Assembly (NCBI RefSeq): GCF_007559335.1 | Contig: NZ_VMBG01000001.1 | Location: 496,001-560,000 of the forward strand | Direction: 5' to 3' | Source of the DNA: Rariglobus hedericola | GTDB lineage: Bacteria > Verrucomicrobiota > Verrucomicrobiia > Opitutales > Opitutaceae | Length of the DNA stretch: 64,000 nucleotides | Part shown: in pieces, positions 3,819 to 12,903 of the stretch | How the letters are laid out: every line of letters begins with the position of its first letter | Position numbering within the stretch: position 1 is the first letter of the stretch | Notes under the pieces: generated by a model | Told to the model about the DNA's origin: nothing | Seen by the model: only the letters and a program-made list of their open reading frames with translations | Databases searched by the model: none | Program-made: the position numbers and the translations under genes

Positions 3819-5261
3819 ATGAAAATCGTTCAAGTCGCCAGCGAATTGTTCCCCTATGTGAAAACAGGGGGGCTGGCGGATGCAGTGAGTGCTTTGGCGG
3901 GAACCTTGGCCGAGCGGGGGCACGAGGTCTCGGTTTTTTTGCCGGGCTACCGTGCAGCCGTGGATCATCCGCTCGCGGCCGGTGCGCAACGCACATTGGG
4001 CCTGCGCATCGAGATGGGCGACACCTTCATGACCGGCGAAGTGCGGTCTTTTTCCCCGGCTCCGAATCTCACGCTGCATTTGGTGTGTCGCGAGGAGTTC
4101 TTCGACCGTCGCAATCCCTACGGCACGCCGGAGCGCGACTACGAAGACAACCACCACCGGTTCATCTTTTTTTGCAAAGGCGTGGTCGAGGCCATGCGTT
4201 TCATGGAGCTGCGGGCCGATGTGATTCACGGCCACGACTGGCAATGCGGATTGCTGCCGCTGTTGCTGCGGCACACGGAGCAACGTTACGGCATCACGCT
4301 CGCGATGAAGACGGTGTTCACGATTCATAACATCGCGTTTCAAGGCGTGTTCCCGATGCGTTCGTTTTACCGGACCAATCTGCCGGACGAACTCATGGGC
4401 ATCGATGGCGTGGAGTTCTATGGGCAGATGAGCATGATGAAGTCGGGCATTCTGTTCTCCGATCGCGTCACGACGGTGAGTCCGCGTTATGCGCGGGAAA
4501 TCCAGACGGCGGAGTTTGGCTGTGGACTCGACGGCGTGGTGATGACGCGGGCGGATGACATCGTCGGCCTGATCAATGGCATCGATACCGACGTCTGGAA
4601 CCCGGCGACGGACACCTTGATTCCGGCTAACTACACGGTGGATAACCTGACAGGCAAGGCGGGCTGTCGCGCGGACTTGCTCAAGCGCAGCGGATTTGAC
4701 CCGAAGTTCGCCGGTCCGGTTTTTGGCATGGTCTGCCGGCTTACCGAGCAGAAAGGCGTCGATCTCGTGTTGGCCAACGCAGAATTTTTCAAAAAGAACG
4801 ACGTGCGGTTCATCGTGCTGGGCTCGGGAGACAAAGAACTCGAGGCTGGCTTGCGCGAGCTGGTGGCGGCGATTCCCAGTCGTGTGTCGCTCTCGGCGCG
4901 ACTCGATGAAGGCATGAGTCATCTCATCGAGGCGGGCAGCGACTTTTTCCTCATGCCATCGCGCTTTGAACCGTGCGGATTAAACCAGATGTATTCGCAA
5001 GCCTATGGAACGATTCCGCTGGTGACGCGGGTGGGCGGGCTGGCCGACACGGTCATTGACCTTGATCATAATCCGCACGCAGGCACTGGCGTGCTGTTTC
5101 ATCCCAGTGAAGAAGGCGTGAAGGCCGGTTTGGACCGGGCGCTGACGTTGTTTGCGGACAAGACGTCGATGGCCGTGGTGCAGGCTCGCGGCATGCACTC
5201 AGATTTCGGTTGGGATAAGACGGCGCAGGCCTACGAGGACCTTTACGGCGATGCGATCTGA
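3819..5261 (+). CDS. glgA: Glycogen synthase (ADP-glucose type, GT5)
   Basis: GlgA elongates alpha-1,4-glucan chains with ADP-glucose in the cytoplasm. The protein is 480 residues, the usual GT5 length. The N-terminal KTGGLAD motif (K15-D21) binds ADP-glucose. The C-terminal GT-B half carries RFEPCGLNQMYSQAYG with the conserved Glu at about residue 384, and TRVGGLADTV follows. No other glycogen genes are adjacent, so it is an isolated member of the pathway here. It ends 11 bases from a convergent gene without an obvious terminator. Confidence 0.96.
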   Translation: MKIVQVASELFPYVKTGGLADAVSALAGTLAERGHEVSVFLPGYRAAVDHPLAAGAQRTLGLRIEMGDTFMTGEVRSFSPAPNLTLHLVCREEFFDRRNPYGTPERDYEDNHHRFIFFCKGVVEAMRFMELRADVIHGHDWQCGLLPLLLRHTEQRYGITLAMKTVFTIHNIAFQGVFPMRSFYRTNLPDELMGIDGVEFYGQMSMMKSGILFSDRVTTVSPRYAREIQTAEFGCGLDGVVMTRADDIVGLINGIDTDVWNPATDTLIPANYTVDNLTGKAGCRADLLKRSGFDPKFAGPVFGMVCRLTEQKGVDLVLANAEFFKKNDVRFIVLGSGDKELEAGLRELVAAIPSRVSLSARLDEGMSHLIEAGSDFFLMPSRFEPCGLNQMYSQAYGTIPLVTRVGGLADTVIDLDHNPHAGTGVLFHPSEEGVKAGLDRALTLFADKTSMAVVQARGMHSDFGWDKTAQAYEDLYGDAI

Positions 5262-5272
5262 GGGCGGGCCGT

Positions 5273-5950
5273 TTACTTTTTCCCTGCGTAAACGTGATCT
5301 GAATAGGTCACGGTCATTTCCTGATCCAGCGATCGAAACCACATCGCGCGGCCGCGGATTCGCACCGTGACCAGCTTGAGGAAAGTGGGCGTGTCGCCGT
5401 CGGGAAGAGAGTAGGTCATTACTGTGCGCGCTTCCTGGACCTTGACCATGAAGACCGGCGAGAACGGGCCGGTGCTGGCTAGTTCTACTTTTTCAATGGT
5501 GCCCGTGGGGCGGTGCAGTGTGAACGTGGCGCGCATGAATACGGCGGAGTGATCGTCATCGTCGCCCGGCTTGAGCTGGAAACGGTATTCACCGCGTTCG
5601 GCGGTTTCGCTCAGGACTTCACAGGTGCCGGGTGCAATCTGGTCTTTGACGTTGGGCGCGGTTTCGTTGGAGGAACGGCGGGATTTGAGCTCGAGGTATT
5701 TTTGCGTTTCCTCGGTGGTCGGAGCGCGTCCGTCCTGTTGCACGAGCGTCCACAGGCGAAAGTTTTTACCCAAGGGGTCATAGCGCTCCACACGTCCGCG
5801 ATCACCGGCGATGGTGGTTTGGGTGAAGGCCCAGCCCTTCGTTCCTTCCGCATGAAACCCTTTGAGGGCTTCAGCGAGTTCGGGCGGGGTCGGTGCAGCA
5901 ATCAGCGGGCAACCGAGGGCGAGTAGAAAGAGGCAGGCAAACAGGCGCAT
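5273..5950 (-). CDS. Secreted protein of unknown function
   Basis: I start this 225-residue protein at an internal ATG because it is followed directly by a convincing signal peptide (MRLFACLFLLALGCPLIAA). The longer frame upstream encodes an unlikely Arg/Pro-rich stretch. The mature part begins with TPPELAEALKGFHAEGTKGWAF and has a Lys/Arg/Asn-rich middle and an acidic DDDD run. Its beta-rich pattern, with a W-x-LVQQDGRAPT-type segment, vaguely recalls periplasmic proteins of unknown function. I recognise no family or active site. It probably acts in the periplasm. The GreA/GreB-like gene starts only 58 bases upstream on the same strand. Confidence 0.7.
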   Translation of the reverse strand: MRLFACLFLLALGCPLIAAPTPPELAEALKGFHAEGTKGWAFTQTTIAGDRGRVERYDPLGKNFRLWTLVQQDGRAPTTEETQKYLELKSRRSSNETAPNVKDQIAPGTCEVLSETAERGEYRFQLKPGDDDDHSAVFMRATFTLHRPTGTIEKVELASTGPFSPVFMVKVQEARTVMTYSLPDGDTPTFLKLVTVRIRGRAMWFRSLDQEMTVTYSDHVYAGKK

Positions 5951-6008
5951 CCCGACTGAAAAACGCGACGCGGCGGGTGGATGCAATCCTACTCTGCGGG
6001 TTCGCCGG

Positions 6009-6488
6009 TCAGGCCAAGGCCACGACCTTATGGGAAACCGCACCGGTTCGCCCCGGAAGTTGCACGGAATCTCCGGTGACACGCCCGAGCAACTGGCGTC
6101 CCAGCGGGGAAGACGGCGTGACGACGAGGCAGGATTCGCCCGCTTCGTTGATCTCCATGCCGCCGTTGCGAGGGCCGAGAAAGTAAGTCGTCTGCCGACC
6201 CTTCGTTTCGAGTGTGATCACTGCGCCCAAGGCGGCGGGACGGCCGCTGGAAAAATCCGGCAATTCCAAGGTGCGATAGAGCACGATGGACTCGGCGATC
6301 TCGGCGGCGAGGCGGGCCTGGCCTTCGGCGAGATAGGCAGCTTCCTGCCCGCGCATGTCGAATTTACCCTCCTGCTTGTTTTCGGTGCTGGTGGCCTCTT
6401 CGCGCGATTCGTGGGCCGCACGGGCCTGGAGATCGAGTTCTCGTTGGAGCTGGGCGACGATGGCGTCGCGGACGGCTGACTTCTGCAT
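6009..6488 (-). CDS. GreA/GreB-family elongation-factor-like protein
   Basis: The 159-residue protein (start taken at the internal ATG; an upstream GTG would add 8 residues) has a helical N-terminal half and a C-terminal FKBP-like half. The C-terminal block SSPLGRQLLGRVTGDSVQLP matches the Gre C-domain signature (SPLGRALLGK.VGD.V). True GreA/GreB insert an N-terminal coiled-coil into the RNA polymerase secondary channel and use acidic tip residues to stimulate transcript cleavage. Here the corresponding loop reads ENKQEGKFDMRGQEAAYLAE. This resembles a divergent Gre-like subfamily, so cleavage activity is uncertain. It lies between a secreted protein gene and a receiver gene on the same strand. 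Confidence 0.75.
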   Translation of the reverse strand: MQKSAVRDAIVAQLQRELDLQARAAHESREEATSTENKQEGKFDMRGQEAAYLAEGQARLAAEIAESIVLYRTLELPDFSSGRPAALGAVITLETKGRQTTYFLGPRNGGMEINEAGESCLVVTPSSPLGRQLLGRVTGDSVQLPGRTGAVSHKVVALA

Positions 6489-6532
6489 CCGGACCAACGT
6501 AGAGTTCACCACGAATGACGCCAGCGAAACTC

Positions 6533-6916
6533 TCAGGCGTGCGCCGCGGATTCTTTGCGCAAATTGAGAAGTTTTTGCACGCGCTCGGTGAGTTCGCGCG
6601 GGCTGAAGGGCTTGGTGAGATAGTCGAGTGCCCCCAGTTCCAGTCCGAGGCTGCGCGCATCCGTCGTGGCCCAGGCGGTGAGGATCACGATGGGAATGGC
6701 GGCCGTGGCGGCGTCACGACGAAGGATTTCACAGATGCCAAAGCCATCGATGTCGGGTAACATCAGATCCAGCAGGATGAGATCGGGCTTCCGGCGGGCC
6801 ACCGTAGCGAGCGCGTCGTGTCCGTTGGCCGCGGTCATGACTTCGCAACCGGCCCGTGTGAGGTGAAACTGCACAAGGTCGGTCACGTCCTGCTCATCAT
6901 CCACACTGAGAATCAA
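6533..6916 (-). CDS. Single-domain response regulator
   Basis: A 127-residue CheY-like receiver with no output domain. I place the start at a TTG codon because a perfect AAGGAGG Shine-Dalgarno lies 8 bases before it, and the product then begins directly with MILSVDDEQDV. The longer frame adds 29 non-receiver residues. Phosphorylation site residues are visible: acidic pair D6/D7, acceptor D50 (LILLDLMLPDIDG), T80 (VILTAWA) and K102 (YLTKPFS). No kinase is adjacent; the GreA/GreB-like gene follows 44 bases downstream on the same strand. The partner kinase and target are unknown. Confidence 0.88.
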   Translation of the reverse strand: MILSVDDEQDVTDLVQFHLTRAGCEVMTAANGHDALATVARRKPDLILLDLMLPDIDGFGICEILRRDAATAAIPIVILTAWATTDARSLGLELGALDYLTKPFSPRELTERVQKLLNLRKESAAHA

Positions 6917-6919
6917 GGG

Positions 6920-6930
6920 TCGCACCTCCT
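6920..6930 (-). promoter_or_regulatory. Strong Shine-Dalgarno sequence deciding a TTG start
   Basis: Read on the minus strand, AAGGAGG precedes the TTG start of the receiver gene by eight bases. Most genes in this window have weak or no Shine-Dalgarno sequence, so this match is unusual and outweighs the longer reading frame upstream. Confidence 0.75.
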
Positions 6931-7131
6931 TAATATGAACGATATGCGTGTCGGTGCGGTGACGTAAAGGTGACGATGCGGTAAAAAACATGTTCAGCCG
7001 CACCCGTGCACCTCCGTAGTCCTGCGAAAAAACCGTTAAAACAAGAGGTTAGGGCGATCCGTTCTCGCGGCGGGTGGCCGGATCATCATGGTGAGAAATA
7101 GCTAGTGTAACGGCATTTTCAATACACCTAG

Positions 7132-8022
7132 ATGGCCAGAAAAATCAGCTTTCTTAATTACAAGGGCGGCGTCGGAAAAACCTCCTTGATCGTAAACACC
7201 GCAGCCTGTCTGGCAGCGAACGGACGTCGCGTCTTGCTCTGCGATTTTGACACGCAGTCAAATGCCAGCATCTGGCTCATGCGCCTCGAGCGCTGGAACA
7301 AGCTCAATGCCGACGGGCATGGCTCGGTCTATTCGTTCTTCGAGCCGGGCGGCGTTCAACTGGAAGACCTGATCGTGCGCGACGTGGTTCAGGACAAGGG
7401 CGGAAAACCCGCGCTGCCGGGGCTCGATCTGCTGCCGACCACGTTCAACCTCGTTGATCTCGAAAACGAGTTCACGGGCGACCCGCGCCGGCCTGCTTAT
7501 TTGCTTTTTCAGGAGCAGTTGGCCGAAGTGGCGAAGAATTACGATTACGTGCTCTTTGACTGCCCGCCCAATCTGCTGCGCGCCTCGCAGTGCAGCGTTT
7601 TCAGCTCCAACGAAATCTACGTTCCGTCGAATCCCGATGCCCTGAGCCTGATCGGATTCACGCTGTTGGTGGAAAAACTGGGACGTTTTCAGCAGCTCTC
7701 CGCCGGCTTCCGCACCACCGCGATGGGCACGCCGACGCAGATCCGCGGAATCATTTTTAACTCGATCAAGACCGGCGTGGATATCGAGGTGCCGAAAATG
7801 CGAATGCAGCTCCGGCTGAACCAATTCAAGGCCGCCAAGCGCGCCTCATCGGACGCCAAAATTTTTGATACCCAGATACGCGATGCGATGGTGGTGCGCC
7901 GCGCCGTCACGTTGGGGTTGCCCGTCAACCTCATCGGACAGGAAAGCGCCGAAGCCACTCGCGACAACGTTGTCCAAGACTACCGCCAGCTCGCGGCAGA
8001 AATTGAAAGGCATGAACCATGA
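7132..8022 (+). CDS. Orphan ParA/MinD-family ATPase
   Basis: A 296-residue P-loop ATPase with the deviant Walker A motif KGGVGKTS (K11-S18, signature lysine K11), Walker A' D40 (CDFDTQSN) and Walker B FDCPPNLL. Such ATPases form ATP-dependent dimers that bind DNA or membrane and position a cargo (chromosome origin, plasmid, carboxysome, chemoreceptor array, flagellum). There is no ParB, parS-like cluster or gidAB neighbourhood, so this is probably not the chromosome-segregation ParA. Its stop overlaps the ATG of the next gene (ATGA), and a coiled-coil gene follows, so the three products likely form one positioning module. The cargo cannot be told from sequence. Confidence 0.88.
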   Translation: MARKISFLNYKGGVGKTSLIVNTAACLAANGRRVLLCDFDTQSNASIWLMRLERWNKLNADGHGSVYSFFEPGGVQLEDLIVRDVVQDKGGKPALPGLDLLPTTFNLVDLENEFTGDPRRPAYLLFQEQLAEVAKNYDYVLFDCPPNLLRASQCSVFSSNEIYVPSNPDALSLIGFTLLVEKLGRFQQLSAGFRTTAMGTPTQIRGIIFNSIKTGVDIEVPKMRMQLRLNQFKAAKRASSDAKIFDTQIRDAMVVRRAVTLGLPVNLIGQESAEATRDNVVQDYRQLAAEIERHEP

Positions 8023-9011
8023 ACACGACTATCCCCACCACGACGATGCGCCGAACCCAATCACCCTTCGCAACCACACGCTACACTTCGAAAGATTGGG
8101 ACGAGGTCCGCGTGGCCTTCGGCTCATCCATCCTGGTGGACACGTCACTCACCAGCCTCGCGCAAAACCTTGAAGGCGCCGCCTGGCCGCTCGCCGGCCT
8201 CGACGAGACGCCAGCCACCTACATCGACCTGTCGTTTGACGACATGCGCGAACGCCTTGCGCTGCAGGGGCAGCCCCCGCGCATCGCGGACCAATTGATC
8301 GAAATCCTCAAGGAGACCCTGGCGTTCGATGAACCGTTCGGCGACATGGTGACGCAGTCGGAGTCCGCCACCGTCGATGAAAATCCCTTGGTGAAGAATC
8401 TCTCGAAGTTGAAAATCCCCTTGGATTTCCCGGTGACGCTGACGGCCCTCTCGGCCGAGACGCTGTTGTTCTGCCGTTTGGAAAACATCACCACGATCGG
8501 CGGGTTCGCCCTCACGGCGCAGCGCATGGCCGGCACGGTGGTGGTGGGCGGCGACTTCCGCTCACTGCTCAACGCGCTTTCCAATATCGATGAACGCACG
8601 CTGGCGCGTTACCTGCCGTTCCGTCCCGGATCGAAAGGTCTGCACTACATCGAAGGCCTCGCCCAGTGCGTCGAGTCGCAGCCGGTGGCGATTCAGGCGG
8701 CGCTGGCCCGTAGTTTGAAACAAGAGATATCCGCCGCCGCTGAAGAGCTGGCCCGCGGGATTTCCGACGAGCAACTGGCCAAGGCCAAACACGATCTGCA
8801 GGTGCAAGCGGCGGCGCTGCGCGGTTTCTGCCCCGAGGATTACGCCGACCTCCAGGCACAAATCGCTTCGGGCACGAGTCCGCGTAGGTTGACCACCGTG
8901 CTGGGCGAACCCTCGCTTGAGGCCGTGGTGACCGAGTTCATCACACCGGTGGCCGCGAAGCCCAAGGCGACCGGATTTTTCGCACGGTTAACGCGTCTTT
9001 GGAGGAAATAA
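8019..9011 (+). CDS. Unknown protein in ParA operon, with amphipathic C-terminal helix
   Basis: A 330-residue protein that I do not recognise. It is translationally coupled to the ParA-like gene by an ATGA overlap. The central region (about 140-225) is Leu-rich with short helices; the part reading LSAETLLFCRLENITTIGGF loosely resembles a helix-hairpin-helix or RpoA-CTD-type repeat. Residues about 225-285 are helical and Ala/Gln-rich. The last 13 residues (TGFFARLTRLWRK) form a strongly amphipathic basic helix like the membrane-targeting tails of MinD-type proteins. I infer a possible adaptor linking the ATPase to membrane or cargo, but no domain assignment supports this. Confidence 0.75.
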   Translation: MNTTIPTTTMRRTQSPFATTRYTSKDWDEVRVAFGSSILVDTSLTSLAQNLEGAAWPLAGLDETPATYIDLSFDDMRERLALQGQPPRIADQLIEILKETLAFDEPFGDMVTQSESATVDENPLVKNLSKLKIPLDFPVTLTALSAETLLFCRLENITTIGGFALTAQRMAGTVVVGGDFRSLLNALSNIDERTLARYLPFRPGSKGLHYIEGLAQCVESQPVAIQAALARSLKQEISAAAEELARGISDEQLAKAKHDLQVQAAALRGFCPEDYADLQAQIASGTSPRRLTTVLGEPSLEAVVTEFITPVAAKPKATGFFARLTRLWRK

Positions 9012-9015
9012 AATC

Positions 9016-9717
9016 ATGGCTACCACGGCATCGTTTTCAACATTCGTTCGCCCCCCGGGAAGCCCGATCTACTCGCCAGCGGGACCGTCCCTCGTGTTGC
9101 CGCGTCGCTCACCGTCCAATCGAGTGCAGCGTTTGCCGAATGAAGTGAAAGATTCTCCCGCTGCGGAAGCCCGCCGGCAAATTGCCCAGGTGCTGGCGTT
9201 GATCCGTGCGGCCGAGGAGATGGAGCCGCCATGTCCCGTGGTCGATGCGCAGAATGAAGAACTGGCGCGCTCGTTGCACCAACTGGAAGCGAAACTGGCA
9301 GAGCGTGAACGCGAGGTGGCCGAAAAGGAACTGCGCCTCGCTGATCGCGAGCGTGATCAGGCGGAGACGAATGCGTTGCTACAACACCGCGAGGCGTTGT
9401 TGGCCGCCGCGCGTAAACTGCCGGTGGTGCGTGCACCGCTTTCCGTGGCGGAACACGCGGCGCTACTCAACCTGAAGGGCGAGCTCGACCGGCAGGAGGC
9501 GTCTCTGCGCGAACATCGCGAAGCGCTGCGTGAACGCGAAAAATTTATCGAAGACAGTGAACGCCGGCTTTTCGAAAAAGTGCAGGAACAGCAGGAAAAA
9601 GAAATGGAGCTGGAGCAGCGCGAGGAAGAGTCGCAGTTCCGTGCATTGAATGCCGCGCCAGTCGGAGCCGATGCGCCGCCTGCGGTTAAAAAGACCTTCG
9701 ACGAATTTACCGAATAA
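9016..9717 (+). CDS. Coiled-coil protein, third gene of the ParA operon
   Basis: A 233-residue protein with a disordered Pro/Ser-rich N-terminus (about 1-50) and long Glu/Arg-rich heptad-like stretches at roughly 72-130 and 145-210 (for example LAEREREVAEKELRLADRER). These predict extended coiled coil. The N-terminus contains PPGSPIYSPAGPS, a possible short interaction motif. A good Shine-Dalgarno (GGAGG, 10 bases before ATG) lies at the end of the preceding gene, with only four bases between the genes. Small coiled-coil or disordered partners are common for ParA-type positioning ATPases (for example McdB for McdA), which suggests a scaffold or cargo-adaptor role. This is inference; no family is recognised. 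Confidence 0.75.
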   Translation: MATTASFSTFVRPPGSPIYSPAGPSLVLPRRSPSNRVQRLPNEVKDSPAAEARRQIAQVLALIRAAEEMEPPCPVVDAQNEELARSLHQLEAKLAEREREVAEKELRLADRERDQAETNALLQHREALLAAARKLPVVRAPLSVAEHAALLNLKGELDRQEASLREHREALREREKFIEDSERRLFEKVQEQQEKEMELEQREEESQFRALNAAPVGADAPPAVKKTFDEFTE

Positions 9718-9769
9718 AGAGGACGGCCCCATGTTGGTGCTGTGAGCCCGCACCGTCCGACGGATCGGT

Positions 9770-11542
9770 TCACGCCTTGATGGCAAAGGCTTCGATACCG
9801 GCCTGGACGTCGGCGATGGAGCGAATTTCCGACGCAGGAAACAGGCTGTTGATGCGGGTGATTACCTGCTGGATAACGCCGTCGGGACACGACGCGCCGC
9901 CCGTGATCAAGATATGGCGAGGGCCCTGGCCGGACGATGCCTCGGGCCAAAGCGAATTCACTTCCACGTGACCGCCATGGGCGGGGCCGGCGGCCGGGAA
10001 GACGTAGTGTTCCACTTCACTTAGGGAACGGATGTTGGTTTCGCTCTGAATAAAGAACGCCTTGTCGCCCAGCTTTTGCGCACAGAGGCGATAGAGCTGA
10101 TACGTGTTGGAGGAGTTTTTTCCTCCGATGATGAACGCGGCATCAAGCGGCTCTTCCAGCGCGCGTGCGAGGGCATCCTGGTTGACCTGCGTGGCGTAGC
10201 AGAGCGTGTCGTTGCGGCCGCTGCCGCCGACGCGTGCGGGTTCGCCGGCGACGTCGGGGCCGAAGATGTTCGCGTAGAGCTCGCGAAGGTGAGCAATGAT
10301 CTCGCGCGTCTCGTTCATGAGCAGCGTCGTTTGGTTGACGACCGCGACACGGGCTAGATCGCGGGCCACAGCGAAGCCGGGAGTGTGTCGGTCGGCGAAG
10401 ACGCTTTCAAAACGGGTTTGGGCACCGGCTGGATCGGTAAGCGATTGGGTGATGACTTCGCCGAGCAGTTGGGTTTCGGCGAGATTGCGCACGATGACGG
10501 CGGGCGCGTAACGGCGGGTGTTGGAGAACGTGGCCTTGGTCTCCTCGTGCTCGTGCTTGCCGTGGATGACGACGGTGTAGCCTTCACGACCGTAGGTGCG
10601 GGCGGCTTTCCAGACCTTTTCAACGAGCATGCAGGTCGCGTCGTATTGGCAGACGGCGATGCCTTTGCGGACGAGGCGTTTTTTGTCTTCGTCGGTCGCG
10701 CCAAAGGCGGGGATGATCACGACATCGTCCGAGGTGAGCGTGTCCCAGAGCAGCGGGAGGAACGGGGCGGCGGTAGCTTTCTGCCCGTTGACCGCAAAGG
10801 GCACGCCTTTTTCCGACTGAAGATAACGCAAGCCGCGGCGGAGCAGGTCCTCGTTGACGAACGGATTGTGGATCAGCTCGGAGAGCATGAACACGCGACG
10901 GCCGGGGTTGGCGGCAAGTGTTTCGTAGGCACGATCGATGGCGTTTTTCACGCCGAGGCAGAATCCGAAATGACTCGGGATAAGGTAACGCACCGCGCCG
11001 AAATCGAGAGGGATGGGCGCGGTAGCGACGCCTTCGCGCCGGCGGGCGATGGCCTTGATCGCGGAGCAAAGCGCCGACTGATAAAGCGCACTGGTGTCCG
11101 CGTCCTGTGAGTAGAGCGCGAGGTTGCGATCTTTCTCGGGGCGGAATTTGTAGATGAAATCGTTTTCCCCGAGTTGCAGATAGGGAATGTGGATCAGGTA
11201 GGGATCAATGGCTGCGAGCACGGTTCTAAGTCCGGCGCCGAGTGTCGCAGTGTGGGCCTCCAGTTGCTCTATTGATTGAAACTGGAGCGACGGATCGGAG
11301 GGCCGACCGCTAATCTGCGTGAAGACGACGCGATGGCGCGTCTGGTTGATCTCCGCGTGAAAATATTCAGCCAGCCCGGTGTGCGCGGGGAAAACGGCGT
11401 CCAGTTGAGCCAAGGCTTTCGATGTGTCGGGGCCGGTGAAAGCGAGGTCGAAGCCTGCACCCTCATGCTTGCGCACGAGGAGTTGATTCGACGCGTTGAA
11501 CGCGAGGATGACGCAGGCTTTGGAACTGGACGGTGAAATCAC
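9770..11542 (-). CDS. ispH: 4-hydroxy-3-methylbut-2-enyl diphosphate reductase with N-terminal extension
   Basis: IspH carries out the last step of the MEP isoprenoid pathway, making IPP and DMAPP with a [4Fe-4S] cluster. The three cluster cysteines are visible: C195 (HFGFCLGVKNA), C304 (DATCMLVEKV) and C552 (GGASCPDGVI), together with substrate residue H225 (LIHNPFVN). At 590 residues it is far longer than E. coli IspH (about 316). About 185 residues precede the canonical start and include a segment reading ACVILAFNASNQLLVRKH. The catalytic part is itself of a long type. The GTG start overlaps the stop of the upstream small gene, implying coupling. The function of the extension is unknown. 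Confidence 0.93.
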   Translation of the reverse strand: MISPSSSKACVILAFNASNQLLVRKHEGAGFDLAFTGPDTSKALAQLDAVFPAHTGLAEYFHAEINQTRHRVVFTQISGRPSDPSLQFQSIEQLEAHTATLGAGLRTVLAAIDPYLIHIPYLQLGENDFIYKFRPEKDRNLALYSQDADTSALYQSALCSAIKAIARRREGVATAPIPLDFGAVRYLIPSHFGFCLGVKNAIDRAYETLAANPGRRVFMLSELIHNPFVNEDLLRRGLRYLQSEKGVPFAVNGQKATAAPFLPLLWDTLTSDDVVIIPAFGATDEDKKRLVRKGIAVCQYDATCMLVEKVWKAARTYGREGYTVVIHGKHEHEETKATFSNTRRYAPAVIVRNLAETQLLGEVITQSLTDPAGAQTRFESVFADRHTPGFAVARDLARVAVVNQTTLLMNETREIIAHLRELYANIFGPDVAGEPARVGGSGRNDTLCYATQVNQDALARALEEPLDAAFIIGGKNSSNTYQLYRLCAQKLGDKAFFIQSETNIRSLSEVEHYVFPAAGPAHGGHVEVNSLWPEASSGQGPRHILITGGASCPDGVIQQVITRINSLFPASEIRSIADVQAGIEAFAIKA

Positions 11543-11793
11543 GATTCGTCGTCGGTCGATTCACTGTCGTCGTCGAAGGAGTGGCCGGCAAAACCGCCGT
11601 TGAAAAAGCTCTCGTCCTCCAGCGTGGCCATGACGGCATCGCTCACGATCTTGCGATCGGCAGCCACGAGGCCGGAGTAATCCATGGTGAGAAGCTCGGC
11701 AATGCCGGCGCGGGCTTGTTCACGGCTGGTGACGCCGTCGAGAAAGTCATCCGCCTGGCTGGCGATTTCGTCGATGATGGGACGGAGGTTCAT
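11539..11793 (-). CDS. Small acidic protein of unknown function
   Basis: An 84-residue protein that I do not recognise. Its N-terminal two thirds look helical (MNLRPIIDEIASQADDFLDG, then a Leu/Ala-rich segment). It ends in an acidic tail (DDDSESTDDES). Its stop overlaps the GTG start of ispH, and alkC ends 24 bases upstream, so it sits in the middle of an alkC-this gene-ispH run on the minus strand. The coupling argues that it is a real, translated gene, possibly expressed in step with IspH. Confidence 0.65.
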   Translation of the reverse strand: MNLRPIIDEIASQADDFLDGVTSREQARAGIAELLTMDYSGLVAADRKIVSDAVMATLEDESFFNGGFAGHSFDDDSESTDDES

Positions 11794-11817
11794 GAGTGGT
11801 CTCGTATAAAGTTTCGG

Positions 11818-12903
11818 TTATACTGAAAGGGAGAAAGCCGCTTCCGCAAGACGTCGTCCGTTGATCTGCAATTCGACGATATGGCGGCCGGCATGGTGGC
11901 GGCGGGTGCTGAAATCACGGATCGTTTGCCGCTTGGTGAGAGTGAGGTTACCGCGAGCGGGCAGATCGAGCGTTTTCCATTTGAAGACTTTTTGGGAGCT
12001 CGTGCCGCGAGCCCGGGCATAATGAATCACGTAGTCGATGACCAGTCGCTGCGACTTGTTTGCGCGGGAGGTGATCGTGGCCGTCAACGCCAGGGTGTCG
12101 CCAAGGGCGAGCTTGCGTGGTGCCGCTTGGAAACAATCAACGTCGAGACGGGCGGCGGCGCCGGCACCGATGAGCTCGAGAGCTTCGGTGCGGCCGGCTT
12201 TGATGAGCGTGCGCAAGGCGTGGCGAATGATCCAGGCCGTGCGTGCGTCGGAGTCATCCCAGGTTTTTAGCAACGCGATGACGCGGTCGGGATGATCCTT
12301 GGCTATGTCGTTGAGATGGTTGGCGACAGACTTGCGGACGTAGAGCGAGTCGTCGGCGCGAAGGGTTTCCAGAATCGGAAACGTGGGAGAAGGATCGGCG
12401 ACGAGCGATTGCAGTCGGGCGCCCCAAGGAAGACGCGGACGCGAGCCTTCGCTTGCGAGGCGGCGGACATGTTCGTCTTCGGACACAGACCAATCGAGGA
12501 GGACGGCGAGGGTAGCGGCTTGGTCGCGCAGGATGAAGGGTCGGATCGCGAATTCGGCGGAGCCGAAGCGGGTGAAAAAACGAAGCGCGTCGAGCGATGC
12601 GGGGACGTCGTCGAGTCCGTGTTGGGCGACGAAGTCGGAGAGGAAGATGCCAATAAACCCGCGGTCGATGCGCGCGGCGAGGGCGCGGAGCACGGCGAGT
12701 TGTTCGCGGTAGGGAAGGGGCAGTGCGAGCGCCACGCCGGTCGAGGTGCGGCGCATGCGATCCATTAACTCACGGGAGGACAGGCCGGTGAGCGTGTGGT
12801 CTAGGAAGGTAGTTGCGTTGAAGGCGGGCGACAACGCGGAGAGTTCGGACGCGAGCGAGCGGTAGCGCGCGGCGTCGAACATGTCCTTGAGTTGGTCGGA
12901 CAT
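11818..12903 (-). CDS. alkC: AlkC-type DNA glycosylase (alkylation repair) with C-terminal Ig-like domain
   Basis: A 361-residue HEAT-like-repeat protein. The block VRRLASEGSRPRLPWG is characteristic of AlkC (COG4335), a non-base-flipping glycosylase that removes 3-methyladenine-type lesions from DNA. The helical repeat region covers about 1-250. The remainder (about 258-361: LGDTLALTATITSRANKSQR..., ending AEAAFSLSV) is beta-rich and matches the immunoglobulin-like domain known in AlkC proteins. A long imperfect palindrome lies just upstream, after alaS. The gene starts the minus-strand run leading to ispH. Confidence 0.86.
   Translation of the reverse strand: MSDQLKDMFDAARYRSLASELSALSPAFNATTFLDHTLTGLSSRELMDRMRRTSTGVALALPLPYREQLAVLRALAARIDRGFIGIFLSDFVAQHGLDDVPASLDALRFFTRFGSAEFAIRPFILRDQAATLAVLLDWSVSEDEHVRRLASEGSRPRLPWGARLQSLVADPSPTFPILETLRADDSLYVRKSVANHLNDIAKDHPDRVIALLKTWDDSDARTAWIIRHALRTLIKAGRTEALELIGAGAAARLDVDCFQAAPRKLALGDTLALTATITSRANKSQRLVIDYVIHYARARGTSSQKVFKWKTLDLPARGNLTLTKRQTIRDFSTRRHHAGRHIVELQINGRRLAEAAFSLSV

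Follow-up and report, generated by a model that had tools for sequence, protein, structure and literature searches.

A chromosomal ParA operon of Rariglobus hedericola with two new partner proteins and a possible role in cargo positioning

The operon considered here lies in a 64,000-nucleotide stretch of the Rariglobus hedericola chromosome (contig NZ_VMBG01000001.1, positions 496,001 to 560,000), referred to below as the window. The genome to which it belongs (G000; Opitutaceae, Verrucomicrobiota) comprises 4.15 Mb in 16 contigs. Three consecutive genes at positions 7132-9717, the trio, encode an intact ParA-type ATPase and two proteins without known family, open reading frame 2 (ORF2, 330 residues) and ORF3 (233 residues), and the coordinates given for them in an initial annotation were confirmed. 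The genes are genuine, and their linkage is strong. The ParA stop codon overlaps the ORF2 start codon, and the translational coupling of the two genes proposed in that annotation is likely. ORF2 and ORF3 are separated by 4 nucleotides, with a GGAGG read by eye within the last ORF2 codons. The features of the operon are as follows.

7132..8022, + strand: ParA-type deviant Walker A ATPase, 296 amino acids, matching AAA_31 and phrog_164, with no ParB partner
7162..7182, + strand: deviant Walker A motif KGGVGKT, ParA residues 11-17, the same in 22/22 aligned trio ParAs
8019..8022, + strand: ATGA overlap of the ParA stop and the ORF2 start, seen in the sequence
8019..9011, + strand: ORF2, 330 amino acids, predicted to be all-helical, without known family in library scans and AlphaFold2 modelling
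8973..9008, + strand: ORF2 C-terminal basic-aromatic tail GFFARLTRLWRK, a putative membrane-targeting sequence by its composition against control ORFs and its likeness to the MinD tail
9016..9717, + strand: ORF3, 233 amino acids, Pro-rich and coiled-coil, without known family in library scans and AlphaFold2 modelling
9091..9108, + strand: ORF3 basic motif LVLPRR, residues 26-31, a candidate ATPase-activating peptide by conservation and shuffles
9238..9651, + strand: ORF3 long helices, residues 75-212, a probable coiled coil in the AlphaFold2 model
9697..9714, + strand: ORF3 C-terminal FDEFTE, a candidate docking tail common to ORF3-like proteins by motif counts

All three genes are under purifying selection, as estimated by the method of Nei and Gojobori (NG86) between the window and three congeners. 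The nonsynonymous and synonymous divergences (dN and dS) are 0.07-0.08 and 1.1-2.2 for ParA, 0.22-0.24 and 1.0-1.8 for ORF2, and 0.23-0.31 and 1.2-1.8 for ORF3, where one of the three dS values was not computable. No RNA family was found in window positions 5000-12000, and promoter-like and terminator-like sites are no commoner than in shuffled sequences.

The arrangement of the trio is strongly conserved in relatives. Locus counts on GTDB contigs refer to the best 80 of 156 confirmed relatives (loci L141-L220), all labelled Verrucomicrobiota (Opitutaceae, Opitutae/Opitutia, Opitutus, Rariglobus, Cephaloticoccus, Cerasicoccus or unspecified). In every one of these loci ORF2 is preceded by ParA on its own strand, and ORF3 follows in the same order and strand in 77; the three exceptions are L204, which is cut by a contig end, and L153 and L172, without ORF3 at that place. 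The same picture emerges from the larger loci read for 23 of the 26 other genomes with an ORF2 match (G006, G008 and G009 were excluded). ParA and ORF2 are adjacent in 23/23 and ORF3 comes next in 21 by BLAST, while L048 holds a diverged ORF3 detected by profile and L049 holds none. Among 56 relatives including the window's genome, ORF2 occurs in 27 and ORF3 in 26 (G034 at a contig edge), and a ParA of at least 63% identity is present in 26 (in G029 in two frames), largely in the same genomes. The contig edge of G034 carries the end of ORF3 followed by a gene for a barrel-like protein, so its trio is probably cut by the contig end. Congener G003, which is 99% complete, has no match to any of the three genes, and since complete genomes without the trio exist, the trio is not required by the order.

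ORF2 was found in a single order, understood here as kinship as used in the genome comparison (NCBI places the relative Cerasicoccus in Puniceicoccales). ORF2 was found in 33 of 286 genomes of the class and in 40 of 387 genomes of the phylum, every one in the window's order, with 27 in the window's family and 13 in other families. ORF2 matched none of 72,556 plasmid records and none of 50,697 phage records; ORF3 was searched in the plasmid records alone and matched none of them. A search of the open-licence literature by title or abstract start returned no paper on this operon among the matches listed, and the text of a V. spinosum essential-gene paper contains no ParB, MinD or Pom term, its matches to 'para' being other words.

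The ATPase itself is intact. It keeps the KGGVGKT motif and matches Pfam AAA_31 (E = 1e-34) and phrog_164, a ParA-like family (5.2e-41 over residues 1-293); the family match and the motif, kept in all 22 aligned rows, place it among the deviant Walker A ATPases of the ParA/MinD type. The alignment holds 22 of 24 rows, L036 (frame-broken in G029) and L049 being left out. The L036 ParA was also left out of the tree, and L049 was left out of alignment A1 (23/24 rows). The ParA frame is broken in L036:10768-11667 (G029) and in L172:5052-5886, a metagenome-assembled genome, possibly through assembly error or decay. The closest solved relative by sequence is Soj (PDB 6iub, 4.9e-16). The C-terminus of the window ParA reads DYRQLAAEIERHEP and lacks a basic-aromatic tail, as do the ends of the other aligned rows by eye; the membrane-targeting tail that MinD-type ATPases carry is thus absent from the window ParA.

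Several observations suggest that this ATPase is not the one of chromosome segregation. ParABS systems hold ParB beside ParA, and none lies in the window. The initial annotation had noted the lack of a nearby ParB, which holds at genome scale: the sole TIGR00180 (ParB) match of the genome falls beyond the window, at C1:329666, about 170 kb from the operon. For each of the 26 genomes that carry a trio-type ParA, the listed ParB matches are either on a different contig or separated from it by about 33 kb or more, although small contigs might hide some. Congener G002 carries a canonical Soj-like ParA at a separate place, and a weak ParA match in the window's genome (C1:1539659) has a neighbourhood that resembles this site by eye. 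Because the only ParB is so distant and a Soj-like ParA is found elsewhere in G002, the trio ParA is probably not the segregation ParA. In the tree, the trio ParAs group with the kinase-linked and acidic-partner ParA variants described below, far from Soj and MinD. Only this separation is taken from the tree, since the branches to the Soj and MinD outgroups are extremely long and the trio ParAs do not form one clade (two changes).

The initial annotation regarded ORF2 as a protein of no recognised family, and the wider searches bear this out. Neither ORF2 nor ORF3 has a Pfam or NCBIfam family above cut-off, and PHROGs returned one match for each, at E 0.12 only. No homology to ParB or to a plasmid or phage partition family emerged for either partner in these three libraries, nor for ORF2 in the plasmid and phage records or for ORF3 in the plasmid records. 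The AlphaFold2 model of ORF2 is all-helical and mostly confident (mean predicted local distance difference test, pLDDT, 83.6), with a weak linker and a terminal helix at residues 320-329. The confidence of this tail helix is modest, the last two blocks of ten residues having pLDDT of 54 and 68. Foldseek found nothing in the PDB at E <=0.001 for the model (best 5.5), a second-look fold comparison gave Z 2.8 at most, and viral folds gave nothing at 0.001 (best 0.95). HEAT repeats were found neither as a Pfam match nor in the second-look comparison, which has no power to exclude them. Two weak resemblances, to designed Armadillo proteins by sequence profile (best E 0.0035, 46 positions) and to Pfam MIC19/MIC25 (0.11), were judged to be chance.

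The most characteristic part of ORF2 is its C-terminus, with a consensus in relatives of roughly KxGFFxRLFxK. At least two F or W residues and a net charge of at least +2 in the last 12 residues occur in 77 of 79 complete ORF2 relatives, compared with 22 of 589 control ORFs from the same loci, and the net charge alone is at least +2 in 79/79. The E. coli MinD tail (NC_000913.3) is EEKKGFLKRLFGG, whose GFLKRLFGG resembles the ORF2 tail.

For ORF3, the coiled coil and the disordered Pro-rich N-terminus described in the initial annotation are both predicted by AlphaFold2. A low-confidence Pro-rich N-terminus is followed by helices at residues 46-69, 75-134 and 144-212; mean pLDDT is 77.5, the predicted template modelling score (pTM) is 0.29, and residues 75-212 consist mostly of blocks with pLDDT >=90. 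Within the N-terminal region, L26, L28, R30 and R31 are nearly invariant in the alignment. The pattern L.L(.)[RK][RK] is found in 19 of 22 ORF3 rows including the window, against a mean of 0.19 and a maximum of 3 in shuffles, and a looser form of the basic motif occurs in 61 of 76 complete named ORF3 frames. The remaining 15 are mostly LSLRR-like variants or overlong start calls. The other end of the protein is equally distinctive, since a terminal DE[FLWM]xE is present in 54/76 ORF3 frames and in none of 646 other ORFs of the same loci. Weak library matches of ORF3 were judged to be coiled-coil look-alikes or chance.

Known activators of ParA/MinD ATPases are described as sharing a short basic peptide, placed at the N-terminus or close to it (PMC13170346). 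An example of such a protein is PomX, for which PMC7993993 reports an Ala/Pro-rich N-terminal region with an activating peptide of 22 residues, basic in character, and a coiled coil at the C-terminal end. Because of this basic N-terminal peptide of known activators and the PomX-like layout, ORF3 is proposed as both activator and scaffold.

Two genes on the opposite strand precede the operon and are outside the proposed system.

6533..7003, - strand: response-regulator receiver protein, divergent to ParA (PF00072, 1.4e-28; in 21/80 loci)
6009..6512, - strand: GreA/GreB C-terminal-like protein (PF01272, 2e-6; in 54/80 loci)

The ORF2 locus often lies between the GreA-like gene and the gene for IspH, the latter being a neighbour in 45 of the 80 loci. 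The window IspH (LytB; 9770-11542, - strand) has about 185 extra N-terminal residues, and long forms are present in relatives too.

Comparison with known positioning systems narrows the interpretation. The ParABS systems share the ParA sequence family, with Soj proteins as the closest solved relatives by sequence, but the present operon has no ParB, and a Soj-type ParA is separate in G002. With MinCDE the likeness lies in the ORF2 tail (roughly GFFxRLFxK), which is very like GFLKRLFGG of MinD. However, the tail here belongs to a partner, whereas in Min the ATPase carries it, and MinC was found in 0/56 genomes, while the control was positive in 6/14, which makes Min a poor parallel. McdB is a disordered or coiled partner of McdA in a system without ParB. 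The trio resembles McdA/McdB in this combination of an ATPase with such a partner and no ParB, but it has a second partner, and the PF00936 family of bacterial microcompartment (BMC) shell proteins has no match in the window's genome, so McdAB is a poor parallel as well. PomXYZ is a closer functional parallel than either. Both consist of a ParA-type ATPase with two partner proteins, an arrangement kept here in 77/80 loci, and ORF3 shares with PomX a Pro-rich and probably unstructured N-terminus, conserved basic residues and a C-terminal coiled coil, a likeness of layout and not of homology. Differences are found in ORF2, which has a membrane-type tail and no detected HEAT repeats, and in the phylum. 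The initial annotation had proposed a new positioning module of the McdA/McdB or Min-like kind; its new partners, their linkage and the conserved tail held, and its chosen parallels gave way to PomXYZ. Neither of the outcomes that it named as refuting, a partner from a known partition family or a linkage not kept in relatives, was seen in these searches. The two partner families are new, and the whole is taken as a variant of the ParA-type positioning systems, without a claim that it belongs to PomXYZ.

The layout best fits a ParA that rides on the nucleoid, with ORF3 as a scaffold that activates the ATPase and ORF2 as the anchor to the membrane. The mechanism we infer from it would proceed in four steps. 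ParA-ATP dimers would bind the nucleoid, which is proposed because of the ParA sequence family and the lack of a membrane tail. ORF3 would act as the activating adaptor, its basic LxLPRR peptide in the unstructured N-terminus triggering hydrolysis, while its long coil may build an oligomeric scaffold and its DEFxE end may dock another component. ORF2 would serve as a helical linker, its C-terminal basic-aromatic tail holding the complex at the inner membrane. Finally, the ParA gradient would centre or space the membrane-attached complex together with its cargo. In these bacteria, for which no MinC was found, that cargo is probably an assembly connected with the envelope or with division. The linkage and the conserved motifs support a positioning module well at the level of sequence, and the fuller proposal, in which a chromosomal ParA and its two new partners form a module that positions cargo, is given an even chance of being correct.

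Several findings weigh against this proposal. The first group concerns the cargo, since none emerged among the 56 genomes. Flagellin does not track the trio: it is present without an ORF2 match in G013, G017, G020, G022, G024, G025 and G031, and was not found though ORF2 is present in genomes such as G004, G005, G007, G021, G028, G029, G054 and G055. BMC shell proteins, present in 27/56, do not track it either, and both leads were dropped for this mismatch of presence and absence. The pilT family (55/56 at E 0.001, 49 over cut-off), MreB (55/56) and ParB (52/56) are near-universal and too common to tell. The second group concerns the module itself. ORF3 is lacking behind ParA-ORF2 in L153, L172 and L235, and ORF2 of L236 has no neighbouring ParA. 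As many as 29 of the 56 relatives have no ORF2 match (including G034, where the contig is cut), and ten complete genomes without such a match keep the GreA-like neighbour gene. The ORF2 relatives of the kinase-linked loci L230-L233 end acidic and not basic-aromatic. In the window the tail has a high hydrophobic moment (0.73), in keeping with the amphipathic helix of the initial annotation, but over the 79 relatives the moment is only weakly above that of composition shuffles (mean z 0.5, with 54% above 0.5). The conserved feature is the basic-aromatic composition rather than the hydrophobic moment.

Three other explanations of the operon were weighed, next to which the PADLOC defence models added no defence assignment, as their best matches were partial for both ORF2 (E 0.005) and ORF3 (E 0.0084), and the match to ParA (1.9e-6) covered residues 3-43 only. 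The trio may regulate an envelope apparatus by placing or activating an assembly for secretion, signalling or the cell surface, much as FlhG, ParC and TadZ act on their respective machines. This is a possible though doubtful reading. It draws on the barrel-like gene with a signal-like N-terminus downstream of ORF3 in 44/80 loci, on a related ParA-ORF2 pair behind a kinase-like gene in L230-L234 and on the divergent receiver-domain gene in 21/80 loci; however, the barrel gene is not found in the window, flagellin and the pilT family behave as described above, and the opposite-strand neighbours (IspH, GreA-like) look like ordinary synteny.

That MinC was found in none of the 56 genomes leaves room for division-site placement, in which the trio would be the functional counterpart of PomXYZ, placing FtsZ without Min, with ParA as PomZ, ORF3 as PomX and ORF2 as PomY plus a membrane link. 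The set of three genes with one ATPase and two partners agrees with this, as does the layout of Pro-rich region, basic peptide and coil that ORF3 shares with PomX, and PomXYZ is stated in PMC13170346 to be the sole ParA/MinD system with two activators. Such a role is nevertheless unlikely. Many complete genomes of the same family have no ORF2 match and must divide without it, ORF2 has no Pfam HEAT match and no solved-fold match, and no known division gene is among the identified window neighbours, for which no systematic search was made. Far less probable is an origin as leftover partition genes that came with a plasmid, a phage or an integrative element and became fixed in the chromosome. The ParA does match the phage-protein family phrog_164, and plasmid ParAs match it at 28-29% identity (in the ten listed of 1574 records), but ORF2 gave no match in the plasmid and phage records and ORF3 none in the plasmid records. 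ORF2 was moreover found in one order only, often between IspH and the GreA-like gene, no ParB is nearby, and all three genes are under purifying selection.

Parts related to the trio are found at other loci. The barrel-like gene of about 430 residues lies downstream of ORF3 on the same strand and was scored as the very next ORF in 30 of its 44 loci; examples such as L041:11398-12690 show the signal-like N-terminus and a terminal F by eye, and no Pfam family was found in the two tested. In a kinase-linked variant (L230-L234), a ParA-ORF2-like pair stands behind a kinase-like gene, whose Pfam match was checked in L230 and L234 (two of the five loci), and a gene for an uncharacterised protein of about 240 residues. 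It is the second or only such pair in G086, G095, G219, G587 and G167. In G020, G024 and G031, a related orphan ParA gene diverges from one whose product is highly acidic and probably disordered, with a basic stretch in its N-terminal part and LLDSYFK at its C-terminal end. Furthermore, an ORF3-like coil with a DEFxE or NEFxE end occurs in five larger proteins of 477-525 residues, which have a conserved N-terminal region of their own and are encoded in G019 (two copies), G006, G011 and G010. These were traced through weak ORF3 matches, only the genomes giving such matches being read; the window's genome has no second ORF3 match. No Pfam domain was above cut-off in the three scanned (0/3), which gave two sub-threshold ATG16 coil matches.

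L107:298-1806: ORF3-like larger protein
L108:1456-2889, - strand: ORF3-like larger protein
L109:217-1785: ORF3-like larger protein
L110:344-1921, - strand: ORF3-like larger protein
L255:5879-7402, - strand: ORF3-like larger protein
L237:6105-7912: acidic-partner locus
L238:6369-8608: acidic-partner locus
L239:4265-6976: acidic-partner locus

By eye, the DEFxE end of ORF3 also resembles the C-termini of the 240-residue protein (for example MDEFDSKF) and of the acidic partner (for example LLDSYFKGL), an impression to which no evidential weight is given.

These loci suggest, tentatively and with considerable doubt, that ParA positioning systems form a modular family in this order, with one ParA lineage, a near-constant ORF2 membrane linker and interchangeable accessory parts. 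The latter might include the coil-plus-DEFxE scaffolds (ORF3 and the separate ORF3-like proteins of about 500 residues), the kinase cluster and the acidic disordered protein, with the shared DEFxE end plugging several scaffolds or cargos into one ParA system.

Bacterial cargos of many kinds, genetic as well as protein, are organised by ParA/MinD ATPases, of which ParA-like members use the nucleoid and MinD-like ones the inner membrane (PMC10241942). The Rariglobus operon adds to these ATPases two unnamed partner families whose genes are in tight linkage with that of a ParA; MinC was found in 0/56 genomes of the group. If ORF2 anchors the complex to the membrane while ParA rides on the nucleoid, both surfaces would be combined in one system, and the modular family, if it is true, would represent a class of machine not seen before, one that positions multiple cargos at the inner membrane.

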